Shown: positions 16,513 to 36,893 of the stretch, one piece after another
How positions within the stretch are numbered: the stretch's first letter is position 1
Layout of the letters: every line of letters starts with the position of its first letter
Source: Paraburkholderia megapolitana
GTDB lineage: Bacteria > Pseudomonadota > Gammaproteobacteria > Burkholderiales > Burkholderiaceae
Direction: 5' to 3'
NCBI RefSeq assembly: GCF_007556815.1
Contig: NZ_CP041743.1
Location: forward strand, 558,001-622,000
Length of the DNA stretch: 64,000 bases
Position numbers and translations under genes: made by a program
The notes under the pieces: model-generated
What the model was told of the DNA's origin: nothing
Database searches by the model: none
What the model saw: only the letters and a program-made list of their open reading frames with translations

Positions 16513-18213
16513 TCAGGCCGCGGGTCGTTGCGCGATCGACTGTGCGGTGTCAGCCGCGTGTTCGTTACGACCGAGCACACGATCCAGGGCGATTTGCAGA
16601 TGTTCTTCGAGCGCGTCGCCGCGCCATGCGATATGCAGGTCGGGCCTGATCAGCACGTAATTCGCGCTATAGAGCGCCTTCACCTGCGGATCGTCGGTGC
16701 ACACGACGCTCAGCGCGGCATGCGTCAGGCGCGCGGCATCGACCGTGCGCTGATCCTGTGCCGTCAGCGCGCGCGCGCCCGTGCACAGCAACGTGAAGCC
16801 GGCGCCGAAACAGTCGTAAAGCGACGTGTCGGCGATCCACACATGCGGCGCGCGATGTCCGGCACGCGCGCAGGGCGCGTACAGATTCGGATTGTCGGGA
16901 GGCGGCACGCCGTCTTCGGGTGTCGTCAGTGGCGAGCTTTCGTAGCGCGTGCCGAGGTGGACACCGGGAATCGCGAACTCGAAGCTCGCATGAAACTGCA
17001 GATAGTCGCCCAGTGCATCGCGCGATGCAGCGCCGGCGGCGTCGTCATCGAGCAGGTTTGCCGGCACCGACACGTGGCCGATACTGTCGGCGAACGCGCG
17101 TGCAAATGCAGTATTGCGCAACGCGACTGGCCGGCGCTCCGCGTCATAACTGTCGATCAACCTTTCGCCGCCTTCGCCGCGCATCGCAAGCTCGATTTTC
17201 CACGCGAGATTCGCCGCGTCGTCGATGCCGGTGTTGTAGCCGAGGCCGCCCGTCGGCGTGAACAGGTGCGCAGCATCGCCCGCGAGCAACGCATTGCCCG
17301 CTGCGAATCGATCGGCAACCAGCGTATAGCCCGCGGTCCAGCGCGACGTGCTGCGGATCTCGAACGGCACTTCCGCGCCGATCGCCTCGCGAATGCGCGA
17401 GCGAATCGCCTCGGCATCGGCACTCTCGCCCTCGCGCGCCTGAACGTTGATGATGAAATGACCTTTGCCGTCGACGGCGATCATCAGCGCACGCTGCTTC
17501 GGCGTGAAAGTCCAGTACTGCCATGCCGGCGCATGCGGCGACACGCGATACAGATCGGGGGCATAAAAGTAGACGGCGTCCATCAGGCCGCCCATGAACT
17601 CGCGCTTCTCACCGGCGACGCCGCTATAGCGGATGTCCAGCGTCTTGCGCACGAAGCTGCGCGGACCGTCGCAGCCCACCAGATAGCGGCCGCGTACCCG
17701 ACGCGGAGCGGCTTCGGCGCCGTCGATGGTGTCGACCACGGTCGCCGTCACCGAATCGGCGCCTTGTACGAAGTCGACGACGCGTGCGCTGAAATGCACC
17801 TTCACCGTCGAACAGGCGCGCGCCGCATCCAGCAGTACAGGCTCGACATACAGTTGCGAGCAGCGATGCGGCGGCTCGGGCGTCGGCCACGTGAACGCGT
17901 GCAATTGCGCCCAACGCTCGGCTTCGCCTGACGGCGGTTGATGCAGGCGCGCGAGTTCGTGACCGGTGATGCTGGTGAAGTAGGCGACATCGGGGGCGTA
18001 GTCCGTCGGCAAGCCGAGCGAGCGGATCCTCTTCGATACGCCGATGCGCCGGAAATGCTCCATCGTCCGCGCGCTATTTGCGTTGGCGGCCGGATGCCGG
18101 CTGGTTCCGTCACGCGCTTCGAAAAGTTCGACGCGCACGCCGCGCTGCCCGAGTGCAGCCGCGAGATACAGACCGACTGGGCCTCCGCCAACAATGATGA
18201 CATCGCAATCCAT
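16513..18213 (-). CDS. FAD-dependent aromatic hydroxylase (class A)
   Basis: 566 residues of the p-hydroxybenzoate-hydroxylase-like flavoprotein family. GGGPVG (residues 9-14) binds ADP, GCDGPRSFVRKTL is the DG motif, and LLAGDAAHLFTPTGGLGYNTGIDDAANLAWK the GD/ribityl motif; a thioredoxin-like C-terminal domain follows. It would hydroxylate a phenolic ring with NAD(P)H and O2, producing the catechol for the VOC dioxygenase encoded at the end of the operon. First gene of the operon and divergent from a LysR gene with 100 bases between. The sequence resembles resorcinol/halophenol hydroxylases as much as MhpA, so no symbol is given. Confidence 0.84.
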   Translation of the reverse strand: MDCDVIIVGGGPVGLYLAAALGQRGVRVELFEARDGTSRHPAANANSARTMEHFRRIGVSKRIRSLGLPTDYAPDVAYFTSITGHELARLHQPPSGEAERWAQLHAFTWPTPEPPHRCSQLYVEPVLLDAARACSTVKVHFSARVVDFVQGADSVTATVVDTIDGAEAAPRRVRGRYLVGCDGPRSFVRKTLDIRYSGVAGEKREFMGGLMDAVYFYAPDLYRVSPHAPAWQYWTFTPKQRALMIAVDGKGHFIINVQAREGESADAEAIRSRIREAIGAEVPFEIRSTSRWTAGYTLVADRFAAGNALLAGDAAHLFTPTGGLGYNTGIDDAANLAWKIELAMRGEGGERLIDSYDAERRPVALRNTAFARAFADSIGHVSVPANLLDDDAAGAASRDALGDYLQFHASFEFAIPGVHLGTRYESSPLTTPEDGVPPPDNPNLYAPCARAGHRAPHVWIADTSLYDCFGAGFTLLCTGARALTAQDQRTVDAARLTHAALSVVCTDDPQVKALYSANYVLIRPDLHIAWRGDALEEHLQIALDRVLGRNEHAADTAQSIAQRPAA

Positions 18214-21903: not shown

Positions 21904-23238
21904 ATGCCCATCGCAGCTGGCCCTCAGCCTACGACAGACACCGCATCGGCAAGCACGGCCGGCACGCGCACTCGCAACGAGGCGCGCAAGGCTGCGCTCG
22001 GCAGCTTTGTCGGCGCGGTCGTCGACTGGTATGACTTCCTGCTGTACGGCATCGTTGCCGCGCTCGTGTTCAATACCGAGTTTTTCCCGAAGGTCAGCCC
22101 CGCGATGGGCACGCTTGCCGCATTCGCGACGTTCGGTGTCGGTTTTCTGTTTCGTCCGCTAGGCGGCTTCATCTTCGGTCACTATGGCGACCGGCTCGGC
22201 CGCAAGCGCATGCTGGTGGTGACGGTCGCGATGATGGGCCTGTCTACCGCCGCGATTGGGCTGTTACCGTCGTTTGCGAGCATCGGCTGGTGGGCGCCTG
22301 TGCTGCTCGTGACGCTGCGCGCGATCCAGGGCTTTGCCGTTGGCGGCGAATGGGGCGGCGCGGCGCTGATGGCCGTCGAAAGCGCGCCCGAGCGCAACAA
22401 GGCGTTTTACAGCAGCGGCGTGCAGGTCGGTTACGGCGTAGGGCTCGTGCTATCCACCGGCCTTGTGTCGTTGATCAGCCGGTCGATGGACAACGCGTCG
22501 TTTATCGCGTGGGGCTGGCGCCTGCCGTTCCTGTTCAGCGTGCTGCTCGTGCTGGTCGCACTATGGATCCGCTCGAGCATGGCGGAGTCGCGCGAGTTCG
22601 TCGAGAAGGTCGGCGAGCACGGTGAACGACGGCTGCGCGCGCCGATCGTCGAAGCGCTGCTGCGTCATCCAAAGGCGTTCCTGCTGATCATTGCGCTGCG
22701 TCTCGCGGAGCTGTTCACGATGTATATCGTCACCGCGTTCGCGCTGAACTATTCGACGGCGAATCTCGGCATGCGGCGCGAGTTCTTTCTTGGCATCGGA
22801 CTGCTGGTAGGCGCGCTCAGTTGTGTGACGATTCCGTGTTTTGCGTGGCTCGCGGACCGGTTCGGCCGCCGCCGCATCTATATGCTCGGCGCGACGCTCG
22901 GTGTGCTCGGCGCGGTGCCGTTCTTCGTCGCGCTCGATGCGCGCTCGACGGTCTGGATCGTCGTGTTTGCCGTGCTGCTGGCGAACGTCGCACACGATAT
23001 GGTCGTGAGCGTGCAGCAACCGATGTTCACCGAACTGTTCGGCACCGAGTATCGCTATAGCGGCGCGGGCGTCGGTTATCAGGTGGCGAGCGTGGTGGGC
23101 GGCGGATTTACGCCGTTTATCGCGGTCGCGCTAGTGAATATGGCAGGCGGATCGTGGCATCCGGTTGCGGCCTATCTTGGCGGGGGCTGTCTGATCTCGC
23201 TGCTTGTCGCGGCTCGGATGAAGACCGGGCGTACATAG
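21904..23238 (+). CDS. MFS transporter, metabolite:H+ symporter (MHS) family
   Basis: 444 residues, about 12 helices. ALGSFVGAVVDWYDFLLYGIVAALVF is the MHS first-helix motif, FGHYGDRLGRKRMLV the loop 2-3 motif, and LLVTLRAIQGFAVGGEWGGAALMAVE the fifth-helix motif; the ShiA/ProP/KgtP group shares these. It would import a dicarboxylate, betaine, shikimate-like or aromatic acid with H+. AGGAG nine bases before the ATG supports the start. It stands alone, so no substrate can be inferred from neighbours. Confidence 0.87.
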   Translation: MPIAAGPQPTTDTASASTAGTRTRNEARKAALGSFVGAVVDWYDFLLYGIVAALVFNTEFFPKVSPAMGTLAAFATFGVGFLFRPLGGFIFGHYGDRLGRKRMLVVTVAMMGLSTAAIGLLPSFASIGWWAPVLLVTLRAIQGFAVGGEWGGAALMAVESAPERNKAFYSSGVQVGYGVGLVLSTGLVSLISRSMDNASFIAWGWRLPFLFSVLLVLVALWIRSSMAESREFVEKVGEHGERRLRAPIVEALLRHPKAFLLIIALRLAELFTMYIVTAFALNYSTANLGMRREFFLGIGLLVGALSCVTIPCFAWLADRFGRRRIYMLGATLGVLGAVPFFVALDARSTVWIVVFAVLLANVAHDMVVSVQQPMFTELFGTEYRYSGAGVGYQVASVVGGGFTPFIAVALVNMAGGSWHPVAAYLGGGCLISLLVAARMKTGRT

Positions 23239-23802
23239 AGGTCTCCCGCTGCAACGCAGTCCGGGCGTAGCCCACCCATGGTGGCGTTGTACAGAGAAGC
23301 AATTTTTGCACTTTGTTCTTTCACCACCGCGCGAGAGAGAAACCGACAGCCGACGGGGCAGACGAGTGACACCTCACGCACCGGTGTGCCCAGATCGACC
23401 GGCCGGACAACCCGGCGCATGAAATCTGTCTACACATCGACACCCTATCAAAGTGTTTTCCCGTACATGAATTACGATTGAGATCACGAAATTCAACAGA
23501 ATTTCTTGCATAATTTCGGCAAAAACTCCGGTATTTTGTGGATATTTCATAAAAATCCACCCGAAAAAAGTGGAAACAAACCGCGACGGTGGACGACCCA
23601 TTTTTTCACTAAAGTGTTGACAGTTATATCAACCACGACTAATGTTGCGTTCGTCTGTCCACGCCATTCTCGGGTTAGACAGACCTCACACATACAACTA
23701 CCCATAAACGGGCGAACCCGCTGCCTTCTCCCATCACCGGCGAAGTTTGCGTCGCAGGAATCCTCGCGTCGCGCTCCATAGGCAGACGCAAGGAGACGAA
23801 GA
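23239..23802. other. AT-rich promoter region ahead of the second catabolic block
   Basis: About 560 bases without a credible gene. From about 23460 to 23640 it is much more AT-rich than its surroundings. It contains the inverted repeat GAAATTC-AACA-GAATTTC (23488-23505), a GTGGAT/ATCCAC hairpin around 23537-23560, and the operator-promoter at 23612-23645. The following 5' untranslated stretch is long, about 150 bases. Confidence 0.65.
23612..23645 (+). promoter_or_regulatory. Operator-promoter A for the MFS/SnoaL operon
   Basis: Dyad AAGTGTTGACAGTT (23612-23625) contains a perfect -35 TTGACA (23617-23622); 17 bases later comes TAATGT (23640-23645). The same dyad recurs at three other promoters of this block, each time over the -35. 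Confidence 0.7.
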
Positions 23803-25212
23803 TTGCCACGTACCCCCCATTACGCCGCGAATCGTGGCTACGACATCAACGGATCTGCGGCACCGAAGGCGGGCACCGTGTCGCCGTCACCAACCTCGGC
23901 AGACCACGTTCGCGCGGACCGAGACATGGCTGACATTACGAATCGGGCGACAAGGCGCAGCACGCTAATTGGCATCAACGTCGGTATGGCACTCGAAACT
24001 TTCGATTTCACTGCCTATGCCATCTTCGCGCCGTTTTTTGCGCGCAGCATCTTCAATCCGGCGGACCCAACCGCGGCCCTGCTCGCGACAATGGCCGTGT
24101 TTGGCGCAGCATTTCTGGTTCGGCCATTTGGAGCGGTAGCTTTCGGATGGCTAGCCGATCGCAAGGGCCGCAAATTCGCCCTGATCTCCGCTGTCATCTG
24201 CGCATCTTGCGGTCTATTACTCGTTGGGCTGGCGCCAAGCTATCAAACGGCCGGGCTCACTGGTGCCTGCGTGCTGCTGTTCGCGCGCCTCCTACAGGGA
24301 GTCGCCCATACGGGCGAGGTCGCCGCTGCCTACACCTATATTGCCGAGACAGCGCCGTCTCGCAGCAGGGGGTTATGGGCCAGTTCACTGTATGCATCGT
24401 CGTTGATAGCCGTCGTAATCGCGAATATTGTCGGATTGATTCTGTCGTCCGTCATGAATCAATCGCAGCTGACCAGCTGGGGGTGGCGCATTCCGTTCTT
24501 TATCGGCGCCTGCCTCGGTCTCCTCTCTCTCGTTCTCCGGCGAAACATGGTCGAGACAGAGGCATTCATGCGACAGGCAGCACGTGGGGTAATGCCACAA
24601 AAAAAGAATCCGATGTGGCGCGAGTTATGGAACAACAAAGCTGCCGGCGCGAGAGTATTTTTGCTGGCAGGTTCGAACGCTGTCTTTTTCTACGCGTGGG
24701 CGATAAGCGGCCCAAGCTGGGGCATTAGCATACTGAAACTGAGTCCCACGCACGCACTCTGGTCGGCAATCATCGCGCAACTGGTGTGCGTCATCGCACT
24801 GCCGTTTCTTGGAGCGCTCTCGGACAGGATCGGACGACGCGCAAGCTATTGCATCTACGGCGTTGCCGTAGCCGCTTTGTCGTTCCCTCTTCATCATCTT
24901 GCTCAAGGCGGCGGAACGTGGCAATTCGCACTGGCAATGAGCATCGCACTGTTCATCTTTGCGTTCAATGGCTCGATGTTCCCGGCACTCCTCGCCGAGC
25001 TGTTTCCAGCCGGCATCCGGGCTTCGGGAGTTGCACTTCCCTACTCGTTGTCGGCCATGGTGTTCGCCGGGACAGCACCGTTCCTCCAGCAGTGGCTTGG
25101 ACAGCAGGGCCTCGGCAATGTGTTCGTCATGTACACGGCAGCGATGGCGTTGCTCGGGGCCGTCGTGATGATCTTCACCAAAGAGACGAGCCGGGTAGAT
25201 TTGACGGATTGA
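23803..25212 (+). CDS. MFS transporter, MHS type
   Basis: 469 residues, about 12 helices. GMALETFDFTAYAIFAPFFA and FGWLADRKGRKFAL and LLQGVAHTGEVAAAYTYIAETAPSRSRG are MHS-family signatures. The start is TTG 23803, placed by AGGAG six bases upstream; an internal ATG (MADITN, residue 42) has no site. The N-terminal 45 residues are polar and not conserved. Together with the SnoaL-like gene 88 bases downstream it forms the plus-strand arm of a block whose promoters share one operator, so it probably imports that block's substrate or a product. Confidence 0.84.
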   Translation: MPRTPHYAANRGYDINGSAAPKAGTVSPSPTSADHVRADRDMADITNRATRRSTLIGINVGMALETFDFTAYAIFAPFFARSIFNPADPTAALLATMAVFGAAFLVRPFGAVAFGWLADRKGRKFALISAVICASCGLLLVGLAPSYQTAGLTGACVLLFARLLQGVAHTGEVAAAYTYIAETAPSRSRGLWASSLYASSLIAVVIANIVGLILSSVMNQSQLTSWGWRIPFFIGACLGLLSLVLRRNMVETEAFMRQAARGVMPQKKNPMWRELWNNKAAGARVFLLAGSNAVFFYAWAISGPSWGISILKLSPTHALWSAIIAQLVCVIALPFLGALSDRIGRRASYCIYGVAVAALSFPLHHLAQGGGTWQFALAMSIALFIFAFNGSMFPALLAELFPAGIRASGVALPYSLSAMVFAGTAPFLQQWLGQQGLGNVFVMYTAAMALLGAVVMIFTKETSRVDLTD

Positions 25213-25300
25213 TCTGCGCAGCGTCGTGCTTCCGTTAGCCCGGCACTTCACCTGACGCCCTCAGATGAGATTCACTTTTCAAGTTCAGCGGGAAGACATC

Positions 25301-25906
25301 ATGTCCGACATTACCGAAATCACTCAGCTCATTCTCAGGGAACGACAAGGGCGAGATCGCGGCTGGTGGGCGCAGATGGAAGAGTGCTATCACAGCGAAT
25401 CGGTGGTTTCGATCAGCTGGCTTAGGAGCAGTGGCGCCGACTTCGTCGCACGATCAAAAGAAATACACAGCAGAGGCATTCGCCCAGTCCACCGGCTCTC
25501 GCCGCCTGTCGTACATATCAATCGCGATCGCGCGGTTGTCGAGGTACCCACATCCATCAGCCTGCGAACGCTGATTCATGGTGTGGACGCCGATCTGGAA
25601 TCGTCGGTACGGAATCTTTATCAGGTGGAACGCCACGACTCGAACTGGAAAATCATGTTCCTCACATGCATCTACGAGCGCGACATGCTTACGCCCGCGA
25701 TGCCTGGAACATCGCTTGACCTCGATATCGAGCAGCTCGCCCGATTCCGAAAGTCCTACCGGTGTCTTGCCTACCACTTGTCGCTCGAAGGACACTCGGT
25801 TCCCGATAGCCTGTTCGGAGACGACATTCCTGAACCAGTCGATGCGCTTTACGCCAGCGCGTTTGACTGGATGCGCACGCAGGTGTCGCGCTCAGATCGG
25901 CTTTGA
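25301..25906 (+). CDS. SnoaL-like/NTF2-fold protein
   Basis: 201 residues; the first half resembles the NTF2-like SnoaL fold used by small hydratases, isomerases and ring-hydroxylating dioxygenase beta subunits (GRDRGWWAQMEECYHSESVVSISW, then VVHINRDRAVVEVPTSISLRT and WKIMFLTCIYERDML). ATG 25301 follows GGGAAG; an in-frame ATG at 25265 lacks a site. Downstream of the MFS gene in the same operon. Its 3' end overlaps the convergent GntR gene by 15 bases. It may be a dehydratase, isomerase or decarboxylase of the pathway; catalytic residues cannot be assigned. Confidence 0.68.
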   Translation: MSDITEITQLILRERQGRDRGWWAQMEECYHSESVVSISWLRSSGADFVARSKEIHSRGIRPVHRLSPPVVHINRDRAVVEVPTSISLRTLIHGVDADLESSVRNLYQVERHDSNWKIMFLTCIYERDMLTPAMPGTSLDLDIEQLARFRKSYRCLAYHLSLEGHSVPDSLFGDDIPEPVDALYASAFDWMRTQVSRSDRL

Positions 25907-26695
25907 CTGATCGTCGTCGCCCAGCAACGCGCTGGCGGTTGCCCTGAGGATGGAGGGATCGTAACGGGGAGCTACACCTGCCAGGATCAGCATGGCGAGC
26001 CGGCAGAAGTAGTTCGCATAGTGGCGCGATGCCAGTTCCGCATCTCTGGCCTTTACTGCCGCAAGAACATGCGACAGCTCCGAACCGTCGATGCGTATCA
26101 CGCTGGGGAATCGAGCGATCGCATGGGCGCGATACCGTTGCAGGTTGTCGATGAAACTGCCTATCAGGGAGCCCATGCGCTCGCCAGCAGGCGCAACGAT
26201 CGTTCGCGAGAACGTACGATAAGCGGCTTCCCATTCTTCTGGCGCATGTTCCAGCGAAGCGTTCATTTGCTCGACGCACTGGCGGAGTACCCGGATCTGG
26301 GCATCGGCGAGAAGCGGCACACACACCCGGATGGCAATCGTCATGTTGAGCAGCTTCAGGCTCAACAGGCTTTCGTAATCCGCTATCTCAAACGGCGCAA
26401 CGCTGTACCTCTGGTTAGCCTTGGCGATTACGAGCTGCTCTTGCTGCAGCCGTTGAAGCGCCTCTCGCACGGGGCCGCGGCTCGTGCCAAAATCGCGGGC
26501 AACCGAGGCCTGCAGCAGTTGCCCACCAGGCGGGATCTTGCCGTTCAGGATGTCTTCGCGGAGCGAGTTGAAGATGATGACGGACGTATCGCCCGCCCGT
26601 TTTTTCGATGGCACTTCACTCACTTCAGCATTCCTTCCCGCCGATGTTCGGACTACTGCTCGAGCCCCTGTCGTTCGCTGATTCGATTTTGGCAT
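25892..26695 (-). CDS. GntR-family (FCD) regulator of the catabolic block
   Basis: 267 residues from ATG 26695, which has GAGG about ten bases upstream. The winged helix spans about residues 35-100 (SLREDILNGKIPPGGQLLQASVARDFGTSRGPVREALQRLQQEQLV), the FCD ligand domain about 115-240. The promoter has an AACTGT-CA-ACAGTT dyad over its -35, and the same dyad controls the transporter, hydroxylase and porin promoters. I infer that this protein is the local repressor of all four transcription units, derepressed by a carboxylate of the pathway. Confidence 0.86.
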   Translation of the reverse strand: MPKSNQRTTGARAVVRTSAGRNAEVSEVPSKKRAGDTSVIIFNSLREDILNGKIPPGGQLLQASVARDFGTSRGPVREALQRLQQEQLVIAKANQRYSVAPFEIADYESLLSLKLLNMTIAIRVCVPLLADAQIRVLRQCVEQMNASLEHAPEEWEAAYRTFSRTIVAPAGERMGSLIGSFIDNLQRYRAHAIARFPSVIRIDGSELSHVLAAVKARDAELASRHYANYFCRLAMLILAGVAPRYDPSILRATASALLGDDDQSKPI

Positions 26696-26718
26696 TGAAG
26701 TCGTCCCTCGACGCTGCG

Positions 26719-26752
26719 TATAAAGGCCGGCTTGCACGAACTGTCAACAGTT
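26719..26752 (-). promoter_or_regulatory. Operator-promoter B of the GntR gene
   Basis: On the minus strand: AACTGTTGACAGTT (26752-26739) with -35 TTGACA, 17 bases, then TTTATA (26724-26719). The dyad extends to CGAACTGT-CA-ACAGTTCG with 8-base arms (26737-26754). It lies 24-57 bases from the start codon, the right place for autoregulation. Confidence 0.72.
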
Positions 26753-26940
26753 CGAGAACCGCAACCTGCAATACCCCGATTCTACCTCGCGGCGACCACT
26801 CGACAGTCAGAAACGAGGATTGAGAGAAAGCCACCACTTGTGACATTCTGGTAAGCGCAAGCCAGCAATTCAAACCAGTTCACCGCGTTTATTCGGCATG
26901 AGAAGAGTCGACACTTTCTTGTGTAAATCTCGAACCCGCT

Positions 26941-28050
26941 TCAGATCCCAGCGTCAGCTAAACGAGGGAAAAGGCTCTCCGCATTGCGCCTGGAAATGGA
27001 CATTCGTTGTGTGTCTGTGAGCGAATAGGCATCTAGCCGGAGCGTAAATTCGTGAGCGAGCTTAAGCGGTGCGTAGGGCCAGTCGGATCCATAGGTAAGT
27101 CGCAACGGATCAGCGAACGCGAGGAGTGAAGGCAGCGCGTAGGGGCCCGGTGTCAATGCCGTATCGAAATAGAACCGTCTTAGCTGCTCGAGTACCGCCT
27201 CCTCGCTGCGCTGCGGGGAAAGCATGCTCGCAATCCGCAATGCCGCGTAGGGGACGTATCCGCCACCGTGCGAGAGAATGATTCGAAGATTGGGGTATCT
27301 TGTCAGGCAATCGTGCTTTACGAGGTTGACTGCGGCACGCGTGGTATCCGCCAGGAAATCGGTGAGCGCGGCCGATATACCCGGGACAAGCGAAGACGGC
27401 AAAGCGGTTGGATGCACAAAGAGCACCGCTTTCCTTTCGTTCAGGAATTCAAGCAATGGATCCCATTCCGGCGCACCGACATACACCCCGCCTACATTGC
27501 TCATCAGTACCACGCCGTCAGCGTGCAAATGATCGAGTGCATACGCAGCTTCGTCAATGGCGGCGCCCAGATCTGGAAGTGTGAGCGTTGCAAAGAAACC
27601 GAACCTCCCGGGATCATCGGACACGACCTTCGCACAGAACTCGTTGACGTCGCGAGCCAGCGCCCGGCTTTGATTCATGTCCGTAGACGGGCCTAACCAG
27701 ACCCCGGGGGTCGAGACAGACAGAATGCCCGTTTCGATACCATTGAGCTCAAACGATTCCAGCGCCGCATCCTTGCTCCACGCCAGGAATGGGCCAGGAT
27801 ACGACGGTTGAGAATGAAGCCAGTCGCTGTATTCCGGAGGAATCACATGGCAGTGTGTGTCGATACGCCTCGGGTTTGCAGCGCCTTCCTGCAGCGAAGC
27901 CGATACAGCCGGTTCGCCGCGAGTGGCTGAAGGCGGAGCAGTCAGGGCGCTACACCCGAGAAAAAACGGCGCAGCAGCGCCGGCAGCCAACGCCGCCGAC
28001 GTCTGTTTTAGCATCTCACGCCGGCGTGGGCTGACAGGTCGGGTTTCCAT
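26941..28050 (-). CDS. Exported amidohydrolase (ACMSD-like)
   Basis: 369 residues. The N-terminus RRREMLKQTSAALAAGAAAPFF resembles a twin-arginine signal, with FLGC as a possible lipidation site. The metal-dependent hydrolase domain is related to ACMSD/gamma-resorcylate decarboxylases: DTHCHV (residues 64-69), His in VLFVHPTAL, His in ILSHGGGY, and the terminal metal Asp in YGSDWPYA. The likely reaction is hydrolysis or decarboxylation of an aromatic or lactone compound. Export is unusual, since characterised ACMSD-like decarboxylases are cytoplasmic. Downstream of the FAD hydroxylase by 39 bases, same operon. Confidence 0.78.
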   Translation of the reverse strand: METRPVSPRRREMLKQTSAALAAGAAAPFFLGCSALTAPPSATRGEPAVSASLQEGAANPRRIDTHCHVIPPEYSDWLHSQPSYPGPFLAWSKDAALESFELNGIETGILSVSTPGVWLGPSTDMNQSRALARDVNEFCAKVVSDDPGRFGFFATLTLPDLGAAIDEAAYALDHLHADGVVLMSNVGGVYVGAPEWDPLLEFLNERKAVLFVHPTALPSSLVPGISAALTDFLADTTRAAVNLVKHDCLTRYPNLRIILSHGGGYVPYAALRIASMLSPQRSEEAVLEQLRRFYFDTALTPGPYALPSLLAFADPLRLTYGSDWPYAPLKLAHEFTLRLDAYSLTDTQRMSISRRNAESLFPRLADAGI

Positions 28051-28089
28051 GCGACATCACTCTTTTCGTTGTGCGCAGCGGCGTGAAAG

Positions 28090-29745
28090 CTAGTGGACAG
28101 CGCGCGCGCCGGACAGATCGCGCGATCCCGTTTTTTTCAACGACTCCGCCAGTTCGTCCAGAAGCGACGGAAGATCGGTCACCGTCGCTACACTACCAAA
28201 CACGTAATTGTCCGGTCTCACCAGAAAGGCCTTACGCCCTGTAGTTCTAAACCACAAGTCGTACTCTGCGTCGATGTCGACGAAATAGTCTGGGCCCGGC
28301 CCTCTCGAAACGTGCGCAATCGATACGCCCAGTTGAGAAAGCAGCTTCTTCTGCCGGCTGTCGAAAATCTCTTCAGACACGGCGTGACGGGAAATGATGC
28401 GCCAGCCTGTGCCCACGAACAGGTCCAGCAGGTCTACACGACCGTCTAGAGCGACCCGCGCCTGAAGACCTGGCCTGCCATCGGCATCGATTGCCCTTTC
28501 GTCGCCCTGTGCTCGAACCACACCGTTTCCCAGCCGCGGAAACAGCGGGGGCGGATCGGCTCGCTTCGCCCGCAAGGCATCGTCACGCAATTTGCCCAGA
28601 ATCGGATCGGTCACCTGCACGCTGTCGCCGATCGCATTCGCCATCTTTATCACTTCATGGACATGCGGAGCGCGCTCGCTCTCATAGGTGTCGAGCAGAA
28701 CATCGTCCGCACGGCCGCCAAGTACCGCATCAAGCTTCCACGCAAGATTCAACGCGTCGCGGATTCCAGAGCACATGCCCTGGCCCATGAATGGAGGCGT
28801 GGTATGCGCGGAATCGCCTGCAAGGAGCACCCTGCCTGCACGCCAACGCTCAGCAAGCGTGCTTTCGAAAGTATGGATCGCCCTTCGAACGATTCTGCCA
28901 AGAGAAGGATTCAAACCGTAAGTCGACAGCAAGCGCCACGCCGTGCTTTCGCTTTCAAGGTACTCGCGGCTTTCCCCTTCGAGTCTGCGGAACTCCAGTC
29001 TCGACCACCGGTTGCCGCTCCAGCGGCCGACAAGCGTCGGGCGTCGCACGTCGAGAATCTGCCGCACCTCGCCGAGTTGCGGCACGTCCCGATCCGGATC
29101 GTTATGTTCGAAGTCAAGTACGAGGTTATCGATTGCAGGAAATCCGAGGTCACGACGTCCGATCCCAAGCGCCTGCCGCACGAAGCTGTTCGCGCCATCC
29201 GCACCGATGACATACGCGGCTTCGATCCTGCACCTGTCGGTCGTCTCGTTGTCCGTTTCCCGCACCGATAGCACGGCGCCGTCCGTGTCTTGCGCGACTT
29301 CTGTGGCCGTGTATCCCATGAAAACGCGGACACCAAGTTCGACGCCGCGAGCGTCAATAATGTCTTCGAGATCGGGTTGATAAAAGAGGTAGCTCTCTTT
29401 CCATCCTGATCCGCCTGTACCGAGCTTGACGCTCTGAAGCACTTCCTGCTCGGGCGTGACGAGTTCATACGAAAGCATCGGGCGCGCCATCAGCTCGACT
29501 GCCTTCGCGATTCCAAGGCGCTGGAACGCACCTCTCATCGTCTCCCCATCGAAATGCCCAGCGCGAGGGAGCGAGAAGCGCTTGCTATAGCGCTCCACCG
29601 CAATCACGTCGAGTCCGTATTGCGCCAGCAACGCCGCGAGCGTCATCCCCACGGGTCCATAGCCAACGATCGCCACGTCGCAAGTGGTATGCGCGGGAAG
29701 CTTGGCGCGGCCATCGTCTGACCGCGCAGGAAAGGAACTTGACAT
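28090..29745 (-). CDS. FAD-dependent aromatic hydroxylase (MhpA-like)
   Basis: 551 residues. VAIVGYGPVGMTLA near residue 28 binds FAD, VIGADGANSFVRQALGI is the DG motif, and LLAGDSAHTTPPFMGQGMCSGIRDALNLAWKLD the GD motif; the PPFMGQGMCSG form is that of MhpA-type 3-(3-hydroxyphenyl)propionate hydroxylases. Start uncertain: ATG 29745 or GTG 29754, the latter nearer to AGG. First gene of a minus-strand operon with the amidohydrolase, under the operator-promoter at 29815-29848. It is closer to the hydroxylase at 33164 than to the one at 16513. Confidence 0.82.
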   Translation of the reverse strand: MSSSFPARSDDGRAKLPAHTTCDVAIVGYGPVGMTLAALLAQYGLDVIAVERYSKRFSLPRAGHFDGETMRGAFQRLGIAKAVELMARPMLSYELVTPEQEVLQSVKLGTGGSGWKESYLFYQPDLEDIIDARGVELGVRVFMGYTATEVAQDTDGAVLSVRETDNETTDRCRIEAAYVIGADGANSFVRQALGIGRRDLGFPAIDNLVLDFEHNDPDRDVPQLGEVRQILDVRRPTLVGRWSGNRWSRLEFRRLEGESREYLESESTAWRLLSTYGLNPSLGRIVRRAIHTFESTLAERWRAGRVLLAGDSAHTTPPFMGQGMCSGIRDALNLAWKLDAVLGGRADDVLLDTYESERAPHVHEVIKMANAIGDSVQVTDPILGKLRDDALRAKRADPPPLFPRLGNGVVRAQGDERAIDADGRPGLQARVALDGRVDLLDLFVGTGWRIISRHAVSEEIFDSRQKKLLSQLGVSIAHVSRGPGPDYFVDIDAEYDLWFRTTGRKAFLVRPDNYVFGSVATVTDLPSLLDELAESLKKTGSRDLSGARAVH

Positions 29746-29814
29746 CACTCGCACTCTGCCTGTGTTTGGAAGTATTGATTAACGGCCCGTATCGGGCCTT
29801 CGACCACGGTGCTG

Positions 29815-29848
29815 AGACTACGATCCGTCAGACAAACTGTCAACACAT
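29815..29848 (-). promoter_or_regulatory. Operator-promoter C of the hydroxylase/amidohydrolase operon
   Basis: On the minus strand: ATGTGTTGACAGTT (29848-29835), with -35 TTGACA, 17 bases, then TAGTCT (29820-29815). Third copy of the shared dyad, with two arm mismatches. Confidence 0.6.
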
Positions 29849-29950
29849 TGGCCGATAACTCCGGGATAATTCTTACTCGATCTTGATAAAATATAGCGAT
29901 ATATGGCCTTTTTAACGATGATCGGCGTAAACCATAGGCTAATATCGAAT

Positions 29951-29988
29951 CTTAAGTGTTGACACTTAAGTCAAAATTTTCATATCTT
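29951..29988 (+). promoter_or_regulatory. Operator-promoter D of the porin gene
   Basis: CTTAAGTGTTGACACTTAAG (29951-29970) is a dyad with perfect 9-base arms around TG. Its TTGACA (29959-29964) can serve as -35, with TATCTT (29983-29988) 18 bases later. It is the most symmetrical of the four copies. The transcript would have a leader of about 180 bases. Confidence 0.72.
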
Positions 29989-30145
29989 GTTTGCATATGC
30001 CAACCGATGAAAAGCATGTCCGCGTGTCACATCGCGCTGCTTCGTATTGGCAGTCGGAAGGAGTTTGGACAGATGGTGAGGATCAGAAGCACCGGGTGAA
30101 GGGCGTTCGACACGTCAGCCCAGAACGATAAAAGACAAGAACTAT

Positions 30146-30162
30146 CGGTCGTCGAACGACCG
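30146..30162 (+). other. Hairpin in the porin mRNA leader
   Basis: CGGTCGT-CGA-ACGACCG: perfect 7-base arms around a 3-base loop, ending about 5 bases before the GGAG ribosome site of the porin gene. It could stabilise the leader or modulate translation; there is no U run, so it is not a terminator. Confidence 0.4.
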
Positions 30163-30178
30163 ACATGGAGACAGACAG

Positions 30179-31249
30179 ATGAGGTCGATAAGTGCAGCGT
30201 CCCTGGCGGGGGCAATCGCTGTCATTGCGCCGTTAAGCACGGCGTACGCCCAAAACAGCATCACCATGTACGGATTGCTGGATGCCGGGATGACTTACGT
30301 CAGCAACGTCTCGGGTCACCCGGTCATACGCGAGAACAGCGACGGCAGCGCTCCGTCCAGACTGGGATTTCGCGGTGTCGAGAGTCTGGGTGGCGGGACA
30401 AGCGTGCTGTTTGTTCTGGAGATGCGCCCTCAAATCAGCACTGGGACGATTCTTTCACCGTTCTGGGACCGCGCATCGTTTGTCGGGTTGAGCAACAACA
30501 AGTTTGGAACGGTGACGATCGGTCGACAATTCGATTTTTTCCTGGCTTCATTGCCACTCGATGCGACATCAATCATAGAAGGCGGCCTGGAAGCGGGTTA
30601 TCAGCAATTCACCGGCCCTAAAGGATCCACCGCCCCAGCTGTCGATAATCACTCGGGAACGGGTCTTTACGACAACTCTGTCAAGTATGAAAACACCATC
30701 GGCTCATGGTCCGGCGGTGTCATGTACAGCTTTGGCGATGTGTCTCGTCACGACAGCATGGGGTCGGCATACGTCAAATATGTGATGGGGAATCTGCAAC
30801 TGGGCGCCGGATGGACCAAAGACAATTTCTCGACAACCATTGCGAACGAGGTCTTTGCCGTTCGCGCTCTCTACACCATGGGCTCGTGGACCTTTCTGGC
30901 CAACTATTCGCAAGGGCGAGAGACCGTTGTTGAAGGCTCAAAAGCCGTAGCCAGGCCACTCGAAGTGGCCGTCAGCTACCGTCTCGGCCCGGCAATCAGT
31001 ATCGGTGCGGGAATTGGTTGGGCACGCGATACGAACCGCGCCGGCACAACGGCAACCATCACACAGCCGTTCATCGGCGCACGCTACTTTCTGAGCAAGC
31101 GAACGGCCCTGTACGCCATTGCCGCGCGCAATCACAGCAGCAATCCTTCAGCGATCCCCTCGACGGTCGGCATCCCAGGCGGAGCGACCGCGCCATCGAG
31201 CAACGCCAGCCAGACAGTCGTACGCATCGGTATGCAAACCCGCTTCTGA
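30179..31249 (+). CDS. Outer-membrane porin
   Basis: 356 residues. Signal peptide ending STAYAQ, then NSITMYGLLDAGMTYVSN, SRLGFRGVESLGGGTSVLFVLEM, FVGLSNNKFGTVTIGRQFDF and a C-terminal strand VVRIGMQTRF ending in Phe, all typical of Burkholderiaceae trimeric porins. GGAG lies eight bases before the ATG. It starts the plus-strand arm of the block, under the strongest copy of the shared operator, and is followed by the esterase. Probably the dedicated outer-membrane channel for the block's substrate. Confidence 0.9.
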   Translation: MRSISAASLAGAIAVIAPLSTAYAQNSITMYGLLDAGMTYVSNVSGHPVIRENSDGSAPSRLGFRGVESLGGGTSVLFVLEMRPQISTGTILSPFWDRASFVGLSNNKFGTVTIGRQFDFFLASLPLDATSIIEGGLEAGYQQFTGPKGSTAPAVDNHSGTGLYDNSVKYENTIGSWSGGVMYSFGDVSRHDSMGSAYVKYVMGNLQLGAGWTKDNFSTTIANEVFAVRALYTMGSWTFLANYSQGRETVVEGSKAVARPLEVAVSYRLGPAISIGAGIGWARDTNRAGTTATITQPFIGARYFLSKRTALYAIAARNHSSNPSAIPSTVGIPGGATAPSSNASQTVVRIGMQTRF

Positions 31250-31401
31250 TGCACCGAAAGCGTTGATCGCCACTCCACGCGATCACTCAAAGATGAATCA
31301 GATGCAACACCGCCTTTCCCCCGGGACACCGGATTCGAACCAGCCAAAAAAGGACATTGACCATGTTGATGAACTTGTTGTCGCCCGACGAAGGAAACTC
31401 G

Positions 31402-33081
31402 ATGAAGTCGACACCTGTCTCGCCGCAGTCTCACTCCAGGAGACGCGCGACAAGGAACATTGGGCGCAAACGCCCTTGCTTTGTGGTCACGCTCATCGCT
31501 ATGGTTGTCGCTTCCGGATGCAGTGCAGAGTCAGCGCATTCCCAATCGATCTCGTCGCAAGTGGTGTTGTTGAGCGGCACGGTTCAGGGAACGCAAAGAG
31601 ACGCCAACGGCGTCATGGCTTTCAAGGGGATACCGTATGCTGCGGCGCCAGTGGGGCAGTTGCGATGGCGCCCGCCCCAGCCCGCGCCAGGATGGCAAGG
31701 GATCCGCGACGCCACAGTCTTCGGCGCTCGCTGCGAAGGAGCCCCACTGCTGGGGCCAGCGCCGGCTGGCAACGTCCAGAGCGAAGATTGCCTCACCATC
31801 AACGTATGGAGCGCGGCGCAGACGACCGGTGAAAAACGACCGGTTATGGTATGGATTCACGGCGGCGGATTCCAGACGGGCGTGCCGACCCCTTCGTCGC
31901 CGACTACCGACGGTTCGAGCCTGGCCGCGGACGGCGTAGTCCTCGTCAGTCTCAACTATCGCCTCGGTGTATTCGGATTCCTCGCCCATCCTGCGCTGGA
32001 CAGTGAAGGCACGCCGTCTGGAAACTTCGGCTTGCAAGACCAGATAGCAGCTTTGAAGTGGGTCCGCTCGAACATCTCCCGGTTCGGTGGCGATCCGGAC
32101 AACGTCACGATTTTCGGACAATCGGCCGGCGCGATGGCTGTTGGAATGCTGATGAGTTCACCGCTTGCACATGGTCTGTTTCAAAAGGCCATCGGGGAAA
32201 GCGGTGCGTTCTGGGACAGCGAGCACGGCTCGCTGCAAACGCTGGCCGAGGCCAGAGCGCGGGGAGAGGCACTCGCAACGCAACTTGCAGGCGGAGACAT
32301 CAACGGGTTAAGGGCGCTCTCCGCGGACACGTTACTGGCCGCGGCACCCTGGAGCATTCAGAGCGACCCTGTGAGCGACGCCTTCTCCCCTAGCGTGGAT
32401 GGCTACGTTGTTCCTGACAGCCCAGCCGAGATATTCGCCCAAGGCAGGCAGAACAATGTTCCGCTACTCGCAGGACACAATGGGGCAGAGGGCGTCATTT
32501 TCATGTCGGGCGCACTGCCGCACGATAGCGCGGCTTCCTTCGAGGCGGCCGCGTCGGCGCAGTTTGGTCCCGGCCGGCTGGCGGAGTTTCTCGAGAATTA
32601 TCCTGCGAGCAACGACGCGGTGACAGTTGCCTCTGCGCAAACTCTCGTCGGGGACCTTCGGGTCAATGAGCAATCGTGGGAATGGGTCCAGTTGCAGCGA
32701 CAGACTGGCACTGCACCTGTCTACGCGTACCAGTTCAACTACAGTTCGCCTTATCTGCCGGCCCCGGTCCACGCGTCGGAAGTTCCATTCGTGTTCGGCA
32801 CGCTCACCCCGCAGCCGGCGGCCCCGACGGTGCCACCAGGCACTCAGGATCGTGCACTGTCGAACCAGATGATGAACTACTGGGTCAACTTCGCACGCAC
32901 CGGCAATCCTAACGGTCCAGGATTACCGTGTTGGCCGGCGTATGCCATCAACGGCTCTCAAGTCATGTTATTCGGCACGACAACTCAAGCGGTTCCCGAA
33001 TCTGGTACGAGCGGCCTGCGTTTTCTGCGCAGTTTCCGGTTCAACGGGCGGTTTCCGGATAGCTGGCGACAAACGGGATGA
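31402..33081 (+). CDS. Type-B carboxylesterase, probable lipoprotein
   Basis: 559 residues from ATG 31402, set by AAGGA at good spacing; an in-frame TTG/ATG extension to 31357 is less likely. The N-terminus has a basic stretch, a hydrophobic segment and VVASGC (Cys40), a good lipobox. The esterase domain shows WIHGGGFQTG, the nucleophile elbow FGQSAGA (Gln replacing the common Glu), acid in NGAEGVIF and His in HASEVPFVF. It would hydrolyse an ester at the envelope, paired with the porin 150 bases upstream. Related to the esterase at 12255 but clearly diverged. Confidence 0.85.
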   Translation: MKSTPVSPQSHSRRRATRNIGRKRPCFVVTLIAMVVASGCSAESAHSQSISSQVVLLSGTVQGTQRDANGVMAFKGIPYAAAPVGQLRWRPPQPAPGWQGIRDATVFGARCEGAPLLGPAPAGNVQSEDCLTINVWSAAQTTGEKRPVMVWIHGGGFQTGVPTPSSPTTDGSSLAADGVVLVSLNYRLGVFGFLAHPALDSEGTPSGNFGLQDQIAALKWVRSNISRFGGDPDNVTIFGQSAGAMAVGMLMSSPLAHGLFQKAIGESGAFWDSEHGSLQTLAEARARGEALATQLAGGDINGLRALSADTLLAAAPWSIQSDPVSDAFSPSVDGYVVPDSPAEIFAQGRQNNVPLLAGHNGAEGVIFMSGALPHDSAASFEAAASAQFGPGRLAEFLENYPASNDAVTVASAQTLVGDLRVNEQSWEWVQLQRQTGTAPVYAYQFNYSSPYLPAPVHASEVPFVFGTLTPQPAAPTVPPGTQDRALSNQMMNYWVNFARTGNPNGPGLPCWPAYAINGSQVMLFGTTTQAVPESGTSGLRFLRSFRFNGRFPDSWRQTG

Positions 33082-33093
33082 GGGTTCGCGCTT

Positions 33094-33124
33094 GCCAGTT
33101 GCTACGTTATCCGTGGCAACTGGC
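33094..33124. terminator. Hairpin between convergent genes
   Basis: GCCAGTTGC (33094-33102) pairs perfectly with GCAACTGGC (33116-33124) around a 13-base loop, between the esterase stop and the convergent hydroxylase stop. No U tract follows on either strand, so termination is only suggested by position. Confidence 0.35.
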
Positions 33125-33163
33125 CGTTCAATGCGTTGACGGGCAACAGGCTGGTTCGCGCAC

Positions 33164-34774
33164 TCAGTTCATCGCATGCCAATCGACGAGCGACAGCCGC
33201 GACGACAGAGCGTGAACGAGCGTCGGCAATTCCCCGAGCGACCGTACCGCGCCGAATACGTAGTAGTCCGGCCGCACGATGACCGCCCGTGCTCCGTGCT
33301 CGTCGAAGAATCGCCGGTATTTGCCGCTCGCATCGAACACGACGCGGCCAGGCACCATCTTGGCGCGATCCGTCGTGATGCCGATAGTCCGGGCGCCAAT
33401 GCGTGCGAGCGTGGCTCGCGCGTCCTCATCGAGGATCTGCTCGGGGTCTACGTCGAGTGTGATCACATGGAAGCCATTGGGAACCGCATCGTCGTAGCGC
33501 AACGTGTTCGCACCGTCGTCCAGCTGACCGTGTACGCTCAGCAAGCCCGCCATCCCGTTGCACGAAAAATCCGTATCCGCGCAGATCAGTCCGTCGGTCA
33601 GGCCGGGGAACGGTGGTAGTGGCGGCACCTGTCCCGACAGATACGCCCGATCGCGTTCCGCAGCCTTTTCGTGGTCCGAGATGCAGACCACCTGCCCCAT
33701 CGCAATCGACGCGTCGATCACGGCGCGAACCTGCGGCCGGCGCTCCGGCGTGTAGCCGTCGAGCAGCGTATCCGACGCGAGGCCCCTCAGAATCAGATCG
33801 AAGCGCCATGTGAGATTCCACACGTCGCGCAGCCCCGAGCACATGCCCTGCCCCATGAACGGCGGCATCTGATGTGCCGCATCGCCAGCCAGCACGGTGC
33901 GCCCGATACGCCACGCCCCAGCGATCAGCGAACGGAAGCGGTACACGGCGTAACGGACCAGCGTTGCGTTGTCAGGCCCGACCCACGGCGCCAACAGTTC
34001 CCAGACCTTCTCAGGTTTTTGCAGATCCTCGACAGTCTCGTGCGGCAGCCGCATGAACTCCCAGCGCCGGTAGCCGGGACCACCGGGCACCATCGTCGTC
34101 GGCCGCGCCGGATTGCACCACTGGCCGATGTCCGGCACGTCGAGCTTCACGCCTTCGTTCGGCTTCAGGTCGATCACGAGCCAGTCCTCCTGGAACCCAA
34201 GATCCTCGAAGTCGATACCGAGCGATCGGCGCACGAAACTGTTTGCACCGTCGGCACCGACCACGTAGCGTGCCCGCACTGTTTGCGTCTCGCCGGTCGG
34301 CGTCCATGTGCCGGCTCCGATCGTGCCACGGCGCAGCGTGAGTTCGCAGTGGTCCGCGAACTGCGTGAGTCCGGTGGCCTCCCAGCCCTGCTGAACCGAA
34401 ACTGTCGGCAGCGACCTGGCCTTGCGGTCGAGCAGCGCTTCGAGCGAAGGCTGGTTGAACAGATACCCGACCGGCCCGTCGCTGATCGACTCGGCTGACC
34501 AGTCGATCTCGACCAGCGTCTTCCAGTCGGCGTTGAACCACTGATACTTCGCCGACGGCTGCGAAATGGCCTCGACGTCCTTGCCGATGCCCATCGCGTG
34601 AAAGACCCGGCGGATCTCGTGATCGTGAAAAACCGCACGCGGCAGCGGATACAGTGATGGCCAGCGGTCGAACACCGCCACACGGTAGCCGCGCTCACCG
34701 AGCAGGATCGACATCGCCTGTCCCACAGGCCCATACCCCACCACGACAACATCGAACATGTTCTGGTCTGTCAT
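33164..34774 (-). CDS. FAD-dependent aromatic hydroxylase (MhpA-like)
   Basis: 536 residues from ATG 34774, which follows AGGGGAAACAG; the frame is open further upstream but that part overlaps the VOC gene in another frame. VVVVGYGPVGQAMSILL binds FAD, VVGADGANSFVRRSLGI is the DG motif, and LAGDAAHQMPPFMGQGMCSGLRDVWNLTW the GD motif, as in MhpA. It should ortho-hydroxylate a phenolic ring to give the catechol cleaved by the VOC dioxygenase encoded 86 bases upstream. Last gene of a three-gene operon (FAH, VOC, hydroxylase) controlled by the divergent TetR. Confidence 0.84.
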   Translation of the reverse strand: MTDQNMFDVVVVGYGPVGQAMSILLGERGYRVAVFDRWPSLYPLPRAVFHDHEIRRVFHAMGIGKDVEAISQPSAKYQWFNADWKTLVEIDWSAESISDGPVGYLFNQPSLEALLDRKARSLPTVSVQQGWEATGLTQFADHCELTLRRGTIGAGTWTPTGETQTVRARYVVGADGANSFVRRSLGIDFEDLGFQEDWLVIDLKPNEGVKLDVPDIGQWCNPARPTTMVPGGPGYRRWEFMRLPHETVEDLQKPEKVWELLAPWVGPDNATLVRYAVYRFRSLIAGAWRIGRTVLAGDAAHQMPPFMGQGMCSGLRDVWNLTWRFDLILRGLASDTLLDGYTPERRPQVRAVIDASIAMGQVVCISDHEKAAERDRAYLSGQVPPLPPFPGLTDGLICADTDFSCNGMAGLLSVHGQLDDGANTLRYDDAVPNGFHVITLDVDPEQILDEDARATLARIGARTIGITTDRAKMVPGRVVFDASGKYRRFFDEHGARAVIVRPDYYVFGAVRSLGELPTLVHALSSRLSLVDWHAMN

Positions 34775-34860
34775 CTGTTTCCCCTGCCGGAAAAAAGTGC
34801 GAGTCATCCCTGGGACCCGATACACCGGGTTCCCATCCCCTCGTTGCAACGATGAAGAAA

Positions 34861-35811
34861 TCAGCCTGCCGGAACGGAGTCGGGTGCTTCCGTGTTGCGA
34901 ATGAAGTTGTCCGGCACGGGCGGCCCCCACAGGTATAGCGAGTCTTCGGGAGGAAAATCCCCAGCTGGCCACGCGTGACCCGCCGATACGAAGTCGATGT
35001 CCGCCGAGTATTCGCAGAACGAACCCCATGGATCTTCGACGTAGTAGAAATAGTTCGAGCCGAGCACGTGCCGCCCGGTGCCCCACCCTTTGTCGAAGCC
35101 GGCCGCCGCCATTTGCGAAGCGCCCTCACCGACCATGTTGACGTCGTCGACGTCCCACGCGCAGTGATGCCAGCCGCGCGCGGTGCTTTTCGCGAAGGCG
35201 ACGAGGTGATGGTCGCAGCCGTGCGGCGCATGCGTGAACGCAATGATGTCGAGCGACTTGTCCGAAAGCCTGAGCCCCAGCGTCTTCTCGTAGAACGCTA
35301 GCGCACCGAGCACATCGGGCGTGAATAACAGCACGTGTGACAGCCGCCGCGGATGGACAGTCTTCGATTCGGAGCGTGCATGCGAGCCGCGCTGGTCGGC
35401 GACACTCCCGGCGACGACGTTCTGTCTTTTCGCCGACGGCGTCATCTTCGGACCCACCTTGACCTGGATCAGATTGCCATCGGGATCACGGAACCAGAAA
35501 CCTGCGCCGTCGCGCGCCGGTTCGATCGCAGTGCCGGTGGCACCGACCTGGGCCCGAAGCGCGCCGAGGTCCTGTTCGAAACAGTTGAAGCTCAGGTAGG
35601 CAAGCGACTTGCCAGTCGATGCAATGACGCGTGCCCAGCGATGGCCATCCGCGGCGCGCAAGTCGAGTTCCTGCCCTGCGTTGCCGGTTCGCGATACTGC
35701 AAGCCCGAACGCCTGGAAAAAGCGCTCGGCGTCATTGATGGACGGGACGTTCAGCGCGAAATGATCGATCGAATGCACACTCGCGCCGCCTGCGGCTGCC
35801 GTGTCTGCCAT
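34861..35811 (-). CDS. VOC-family extradiol-type ring-cleavage dioxygenase
   Basis: 316 residues, two VOC modules. The iron triad is visible in the second: His in RRLSHVLLF, His in GWHHCAWDV, Glu in SFCEYSADIDF. It aligns along its length with the protein at 10376-11344, including the C-terminal PPEDSLYLWGP, so the two are paralogues. GGAGACAGAGTC precedes the ATG. Position between an FAH hydrolase and an FAD hydroxylase gives a hydroxylation, meta-cleavage and hydrolysis sequence. Confidence 0.84.
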   Translation of the reverse strand: MADTAAAGGASVHSIDHFALNVPSINDAERFFQAFGLAVSRTGNAGQELDLRAADGHRWARVIASTGKSLAYLSFNCFEQDLGALRAQVGATGTAIEPARDGAGFWFRDPDGNLIQVKVGPKMTPSAKRQNVVAGSVADQRGSHARSESKTVHPRRLSHVLLFTPDVLGALAFYEKTLGLRLSDKSLDIIAFTHAPHGCDHHLVAFAKSTARGWHHCAWDVDDVNMVGEGASQMAAAGFDKGWGTGRHVLGSNYFYYVEDPWGSFCEYSADIDFVSAGHAWPAGDFPPEDSLYLWGPPVPDNFIRNTEAPDSVPAG

Positions 35812-35894
35812 GACTCTGTCTCCATCAGGTTGTGCATGCCCGCTCTATGGCCGGCTCCGTGCGTTTCCATGCGCCGGACGGCGCAGACCGCCGG

Positions 35895-36743
35895 TCACTC
35901 GCCCAACTCGTCCGCGATCACGTTGCGCAACGTGCCGATCTTTTCGACGGTGACTTCGCAGACGTCGCCCGCCTTCATCAGCAGCTTCGGGTTGCGCGCC
36001 CAGCCGATGCCCGCCGGCGTGCCGGACACGATGACGTCGCCGGGCTCGAGCGTGATGCCCACACTGATGATGCTGATGAGGCTCGCGACGTCGAACACCA
36101 TCTCGTCCGTACTCGCCGATTGCACGACTTCGCCGTTCAGGCGTGTCTCGAGCCGAAGGCCCTTGATGCCCGGCGGTAGTTCGTCGGGCGTCACGAGATC
36201 CGGGCCGAACGCGCCCGTCCCGTCGAAATTCTTGCCCATCGTCCATTGCGGTGTCTTGAACTGATATTCGCGCACCGACCCATCGTTGAAGACCGAGTAA
36301 CCCGCGACGTGCGACAGCGCCTGCTCCTTCGAAATATGGCGCCCACCCTTGCCGAGCACGACCGCGATCTCGCCTTCGAAATCGAGGCCTTCGCAATCGG
36401 TTACGCGCGGACGGATCATCGGTTCGTCGTGCGCAATGAGACTGGTATCGACGCGGAAAAACAGCGTTGGGTAGTCGGGCTGCTGATACTTGCTCTCGGA
36501 CGTGTGGTCCGCGAAGTTCAAACCCACACAGATGATTTTCGGCGGATGGCGCAACGGCGGCAGCAGCGTCAGTCCCGCAGCCGACACTTTGCCGAGGCCA
36601 CTCTCCAGCTTCGCGTAAGCGTGAAGATCCACGCCGCGCGCGAGTAGCGACTCGAGCGTCTCTTCCCCGAGCACGCGAACCTCGTCCCCTTCGCGCACGC
36701 CCAGCATCGCGTGGCCGTCATGCTGAAAACTGACGAAGCGCAT
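35895..36743 (-). CDS. FAH-family hydrolase acting on ring-fission product
   Basis: 282 residues, same length as and collinear with the protein at 11379-12227. KIICVGLNFADHTSES, metal ligands in DFEGEIAVVLG and SVFNDGSVREYQ, and SGTPAGIGWARNP are conserved. GGAGACAGGG before the ATG is a good ribosome site. First gene of the three-gene operon, divergent from the TetR gene with two operators between. It should act after the VOC dioxygenase on the ring-fission product. Confidence 0.86.
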   Translation of the reverse strand: MRFVSFQHDGHAMLGVREGDEVRVLGEETLESLLARGVDLHAYAKLESGLGKVSAAGLTLLPPLRHPPKIICVGLNFADHTSESKYQQPDYPTLFFRVDTSLIAHDEPMIRPRVTDCEGLDFEGEIAVVLGKGGRHISKEQALSHVAGYSVFNDGSVREYQFKTPQWTMGKNFDGTGAFGPDLVTPDELPPGIKGLRLETRLNGEVVQSASTDEMVFDVASLISIISVGITLEPGDVIVSGTPAGIGWARNPKLLMKAGDVCEVTVEKIGTLRNVIADELGE

Positions 36744-36869: not shown

Positions 36870-36893
36870 ATGAGTCGGGACAATTCCACATGA
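36870..36893 (+). CDS. Possible seven-residue leader peptide before tetR
   Basis: ATG 36870, after AGGAGA, opens a frame of seven codons (MSRDNST) whose TGA overlaps the next ATG at 36890 as ATGA. This would couple translation of the TetR gene, which has no site of its own. The spacing from AGGAG to the first ATG is 11 bases, somewhat long. Confidence 0.35.
   Translation: MSRDNST

Follow-up and report, generated by a model that had tools for sequence, protein, structure and literature searches.

The closest described counterpart of the system presented here is Atu1419 of Agrobacterium fabrum, a VanR-type FCD-GntR protein and a proven repressor of hydroxycinnamate genes, which is reported to repress its own gene together with aromatic-acid catabolic genes and was observed looping the DNA between palindromes 190 bp apart (PMC7797058). 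BphS of biphenyl degraders is likewise described as a GntR repressor, its operator overlapping the promoter of an aromatic operon and a pathway intermediate releasing it; it serves another pathway and gene set, and is likened here by its description, not by its sequence (PMC10282184). For several groups of the FadR subfamily, operators with the spacing GT-N2-AC are described (PMC4494728). The window analysed in this study, a 64-kb stretch of Paraburkholderia megapolitana DNA (C1:558001-622000 of the 7.63-Mb, three-contig genome), contains a gene cluster, apparently for the degradation of an aromatic compound, in which palindromic dyads built on TGTTGACA stand upstream of an FCD-GntR gene and of its neighbours. 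With a probability of about 85%, the FCD-GntR encoded in the cluster uses these dyads as its operators and would be a ligand-released repressor of itself and of three catabolic operons.

Paired dyads and described FCD-GntR operators

The gene order between 23.2 and 33.2 kb is MFS and SnoaL (plus strand), FCD-GntR (minus), hydroxylase and amidohydrolase (minus), porin and esterase (plus). All four TGTTGACA dyads listed in the initial annotation are present, each reading toward its named gene, and TTGACA faces the gene in 4/4; the orientation and three of the positions were retained, while the fourth dyad starts at 29954, not at 29955. The count of four was too low, as two weaker dyads (23424-23437 and 26903-26916) had been missed. 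Two dyads are present in each of three regulatory regions, with spacings of 188, 164 and 119 bp:

23424-23437, no strand assigned: ATCTGTCTACACAT, a weaker dyad that precedes the 23612 dyad by 188 bp; score 14.4, for which 0.012 sites are expected in the intergenic region holding it
23612-23625, plus strand: dyad AAGTGTTGACAGTT, TTGACA toward the MFS/SnoaL operon; score 24.0 of 24.7
26739-26752, minus strand: dyad AACTGTTGACAGTT, upstream of the GntR gene
26903-26916, no strand assigned: AAGAGTCGACACTT, a weaker dyad with one mismatch, at a distance of 164 bp from the dyad of the GntR gene; score 17.9, for which 0.0012 sites are expected in the region holding it
29835-29848, minus strand: dyad ATGTGTTGACAGTT, upstream of hydroxylase/amidohydrolase; score 21.4
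29954-29967, plus strand: dyad AAGTGTTGACACTT, upstream of porin/esterase; TTGACA-18-TATCTT

The weight matrix derives from the four main sites, whose top ranks and scores hold by construction; next came 26903-26916 (17.9) and 23424-23437 (14.4), with a match inside coding sequence at 20733 (14.8) ranked between them. The cores of the weaker dyads are GTCTAC and GTCGAC (centres CT and CG), with no TTGACA.

The 8-mer TGTTGACA occurs 55 times in the whole genome; 0.046 occurrences are expected in the 6.39-kb cluster and four are observed (Poisson P ~1.8e-7, with the caveat that the 8-mer was picked after the sites had been seen). The 64-kb window holds four, all in the cluster, and whole-window shuffles gave a mean of 1.39, with at least four in 5/100; this shuffle test is weak. 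Genome-wide, all three exact matches to AASTGTYRACASTT and two of its three one-mismatch places fall in the cluster. Four remote near-matches, C1:1027517 in the same genome and C51:49852 in another genome of the genus, G754 (one mismatch each), and C2:103952 and C2:67887 in the same genome (two mismatches), look like chance: their settings are the inside of an alpha/beta-hydrolase gene, the 3' end of a DUF6492 gene, the space between plasmid Rep and ParA-like genes, and the region upstream of a ThiF/rhodanese gene. The other two-mismatch places may still include a remote target.

The operator had been regarded as different from the typical FCD consensus, a view not borne out by the comparison. 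TGTTGACA is GT-N2-AC, a spacing known in FadR-subfamily groups, and it shares its TGTNNACA core with the proven Atu1419 operator, ATGTATACAT (PMC7797058). Set against the FCD operator form NyGTM-N0-1-KACNy, the four main dyads are GT-N2-AC and the weaker two fit GTMKAC, while the TG-centred ones are not MK on either strand. The even-spaced palindrome with a GT..AC core resembles the description of the FadR subfamily, in which double sites and divergons are common, and the dyads here are likewise paired; the differences are the consensus TKGT/ACMA, as the window has G/C, not T, two positions outside GT, and the usual MK centre, which is TG in the four main window sites (PMC4494728). The palindrome pairs of Atu1419 are reported to be 190 and 109 bp apart, versus 188, 164 and 119 bp in the window; its palindromes overlap the -10 box or sit between -10 and -35, whereas the window dyads cover the -35 (PMC7797058).

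A -10 box at 17-18 bases had also been claimed for each promoter. Candidates at that spacing exist, but the claim holds only loosely, three of the four being weak: at 17-18 bp the closest matches to a -10 hexamer are TAATGT (3/6), TTTATA (3/6; TATACG, with 4/6, lies at 19), TAGTCT (3/6) and TATCTT (4/6). The promoter positions at these three main dyads are therefore provisional. A promoter scan found 6 promoter-like sites (shuffle mean 3.7), and the promoter at 29954 is the only one of the four dyad promoters among them.

The regulator and the recurrence of the dyads in an independent genome

The window GntR matches PF00392 (48.9 bits, cut-off 27), which places it among winged helix-turn-helix (HTH) proteins of the GntR superfamily, and PF07729 (35.3 bits, cut-off 24.3), which places it in the FCD group; its relative at locus L007 of G754 scores 21.4 with the latter model, just under the cut-off. 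The protein is 92% identical to P0001 (Paraburkholderia sediminicola) and 59% identical to P0002. Its structure model is of moderate quality (mean predicted local distance difference test (pLDDT) 75.8, predicted template modelling (pTM) score 0.59), and the closest folds are GntR/FCD proteins, mostly VanR-type, including McbR, AlkR and Atu1419, although the identity to Atu1419 is ~20% over the fold alignment. The VanR and FadR branches of the FCD proteins are distinguished by the number of C-terminal helices, six or seven; in this moderate model the wing is followed by seven helices, of which the final one is short. Atu1419 is described as a tetramer bridging two palindromes, with a zinc site whose ligands are Asn and three His (PMC7797058). 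Judged by the columns of the alignment of the window GntR and 14 relatives, no C-terminal position is His in 15/15 members, and a zinc site like that of Atu1419 is not evident.

For FadR-subfamily HTHs, Arg 28 is reported to favour a G/C pair just outside GT/AC and Pro 40 to avoid G/C, whereas Asn 59 leans to A/T at that place, not significantly (PMC4494728). The 15-member alignment has A, L or P at position 28 (15/15, no Arg), Pro at position 40 (15/15) and Asn at position 59 (14/15), and the dyads read TGT..ACA, i.e., with a T/A pair just outside GT/AC. The predicted DNA-contact residues are thus compatible with the TGT..ACA core. All aligned members share the stretch SRGPVRE, which is also present in the L007 GntR.

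A search of 144 genomes of the genus with this alignment (E 1e-30) matched a GntR in three: the own genome, G754 and, weakly, G753. The L007 GntR of G754 is 41% identical to the window GntR over 229 residues, the kinship being judged by identity and not by a tree. Its gene lies with genes for a porin (56% identical to the window porin), two SnoaL proteins, an acyl-CoA-dehydrogenase-type flavoprotein and a FAH protein that is 41% identical to the window FAH at 35895. The dyad pattern derived from the window has one exact match in the 8.1 Mb of G754, and this match is upstream of the porin gene that neighbours the related GntR gene. When two mismatches are allowed, 5 of the 51 matches in G754 fall within 2.5 kb around the GntR gene, where 0.016 are expected (P ~8e-12). 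In L007, two TG-centred dyads with TTGACA, at 14132 and 16564, face their gene. A third TG-centred dyad, at 16649-16662, has a main dyad 85 bp away, and no plus-strand gene was recognised downstream of it. When L007 was compared with 18 window proteins, TetR included, GntR was the only regulator matched, and the match was to the gene among the dyads. The initial annotation had tied its proposal to a recurrence of the dyads at related GntR loci; they do recur in G754, one independent genome, and this recurrence, together with the clustering in the own genome, supports a predicted single compact regulon with the FCD-GntR as its regulator.

Proposed mechanism and alternative explanations

In the proposed mechanism, a GntR dimer would bind AASTGTNNACASTT. 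The TG centre of the strong sites would make the operator centre a TTGACA -35 facing the gene, in which case bound repressor and RNA polymerase would compete, and a dimer over the -35 of a TG-centred dyad would shut out the polymerase. The second dyad, 119-188 bp off in each region, probably strengthens repression by cooperation, and a compound of the aromatic pathway may release GntR. The TG-centred sites are those with TTGACA (four in the window and three in L007), and the sites without it are centred on CG, CT or CC. Judged from these sequences, the dyad centre appears to be free for the repressor and set for the polymerase; the seven TG sites, with one exception, are not proof of this. A tentative and rather doubtful extension is that each region works as a looping switch with two operators, one of them serving at the same time as the -35, with TG toward the gene and CG, CC or CT at the loop anchors; if true, promoter strength and repressor binding would both be written into such a palindrome.

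The circuit is a convincing yet ordinary example of a known repressor type, and the general picture of how FCD-GntR regulators act is unchanged. A predicted operator and target set are assigned to an uncharacterised, rare FCD-GntR branch. The predicted co-induction of importer, porin, esterase and hydroxylase would let a reporter assay find effector and substrate, and the regulator-operator pair could be used as an aromatic-sensing switch.

Computation gives the dyads, the way they cluster and their recurrence; binding, repression, cooperation of paired sites and the effector are inferred. Several points weigh against the repressor reading. With up to two mismatches, AASTGTYRACASTT has 75 matches in the own genome versus 74 for the reversed-pattern control, so the signal lies in the clustering and not in the total; likewise, the 51 near-matches in G754 are below the 63 of the reversed control, and only their clustering is informative. 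The -10 boxes of three of the four main dyads match at 3/6 at 17 bp. The L007 dyad 16649-16662, perhaps an auxiliary operator, does not point toward the porin gene but away from it, and TTGACA is missing from two other dyads there (centres CG and CC). At 3706-4707, ~10 kb away from the related GntR gene, L007 has another FCD-GntR gene, to which the window GntR gave no match. The distant GntR loci L008 (G753) and L013 (Rhodococcus plasmid), both at ~29% identity, carry no such dyads, with best scores of 7.0 and 9.4 versus 13-24; the operator therefore seems confined to the branch of the window and L007 GntRs. The recurrence was seen in a single independent genome, the one examined that has a sufficiently similar GntR, and this kinship was judged by identity.

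It is highly improbable that the dyads are merely good -35 boxes with chance-symmetric flanks and no regulator. TTGACA does face the gene in all four, and four TGTTGACA are a mild excess across the window (5/100 shuffles), but the symmetry reaches 14 bp and the recurrence around a related GntR gene far exceeds chance; moreover, the weaker window dyads (CG, CT) and two in G754 (CG, CC) keep GT..AC without TTGACA. The dyads could also be operators of another regulator encoded elsewhere, with the GntR gene as a bystander or target, since proximity alone does not prove the pairing; the TetR gene at 36890 in the window and the second FCD-GntR ~10 kb away in L007 are the candidates at hand. This is unlikely, as GntR is the sole regulator among the 18 compared window proteins to find a match in L007, at the dyad-surrounded gene and not at the second FCD-GntR, the TetR operon has no dyad, the four remote near-matches examined are in or beside unrelated genes, and the HTH residues of GntR fit the core.

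A further alternative accepts the binding of GntR to the dyads but has it activate at least one promoter, as BphR1, a GntR-family protein, is described to activate its bph genes, which counts against repression (PMC10282184). However, a protein bound at the strong sites, which overlap the -35, should keep RNA polymerase out, and BphS, whose overlapping operator is contrasted with BphR1, represses (PMC10282184); activation is accordingly very unlikely. Literature searches on TGTTGACA or GTTGAC operators with GntR or repressors yielded none recognised as this operator among the matches listed, and nothing was found that combined GntR, MhpA and Paraburkholderia.

Scope, distribution and layout of the cluster

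The genes concerned are as follows:

23803-25212, plus strand: MFS transporter; nearest model the metabolite/H+ symporter TIGR00883, score below cut-off
25265-25906, plus strand: SnoaL_4 protein
25892-26695, minus strand: FCD-GntR regulator, likely start ATG 26695
26941-28050, minus strand: amidohydrolase 2; N-terminus export-signal-like, twin-arginine-like by eye
28090-29754, minus strand: flavin adenine dinucleotide (FAD) aromatic hydroxylase, MhpA-like; NF004829 above cut-off
30179-31249, plus strand: porin
31357-33081, plus strand: type-B carboxylesterase; N-terminus lipoprotein-like, lipobox-like by eye
33164-36743, minus strand: second aromatic cluster, with an MhpA-like monooxygenase, an extradiol-dioxygenase-like protein and FAH
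36890-37630, plus strand: TetR gene, adjoining the second aromatic cluster

Provided that MFS-SnoaL, hydroxylase-amidohydrolase and porin-esterase each form an operon, the regulon would comprise seven genes. Their intergenic gaps are ~50, ~40 and ~110 bp, respectively, and no terminator-like site was found on the plus strand within the MFS-SnoaL or porin-esterase gap. The description of the regulon as complete from uptake to catabolism was too broad, as the ring-cleavage-type genes at 33164-36743 are without a dyad and adjoin their own TetR gene. No dyad was found there with up to three mismatches, the lone 3-mismatch place (33455) lying inside a coding open reading frame (ORF); the dyad set thus covers uptake, esterase, an amidohydrolase-superfamily enzyme and hydroxylase, not ring cleavage. 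The export-signal-like N-termini of the amidohydrolase and the esterase suggest that the substrate is processed outside the cytoplasm.

In samples of the family, order, class and phylum, the regulator was found in the own genome only (1/299 at E 1e-30; 1/399, 1/349, 1/175 and 1/190 at E 1e-40). These genome searches scored 6-18 first-look candidates per genome, of up to ~90, so genomes carrying the regulator may have been missed. The hydroxylase was found in 1/399 genomes of the order, again the own one (E 1e-150, three candidates scored per genome). A single-protein GntR search of genome contigs gave one match of 41%, in the HTH only, and viral contigs gave no GntR match. On plasmids, GntR reached at most 33-36% among the matches listed, with no DNA match, while the amidohydrolase reached at best 58% and the hydroxylase ~40% among the matches listed (10 each); one of 843 hydroxylase records is in the 60-80% band. 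The cluster is rare: at strict cut-offs, GntR and hydroxylase occur in no other sampled genome, save for GntR in G754 and, weakly, in G753. This rarity suggests horizontal transfer of the cluster.

The GntR ORF opens with GTG 26737, a start that would leave the promoter no room; ATG 26695 fits better, and it has GAGGGA upstream and coincides with the P0001 start. The centre of the GntR dyad is ~50 bp upstream of this ATG. The porin dyad lies ~218 bp before the porin ATG in the window and ~187 bp before it in L007. Within the porin leader (29968-30178), an open frame of 44 codons starts at 29997, and a hairpin of 10 pairs lies at 30143-30165; an RNA leader was considered here and dropped, as Rfam gave no match within 23200-33200 and pairwise alignment with the L007 leader shows little similarity beyond the dyad. 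The SnoaL and GntR genes are arranged tail to tail, and their 3' ends share 15 bp (25892-25906).

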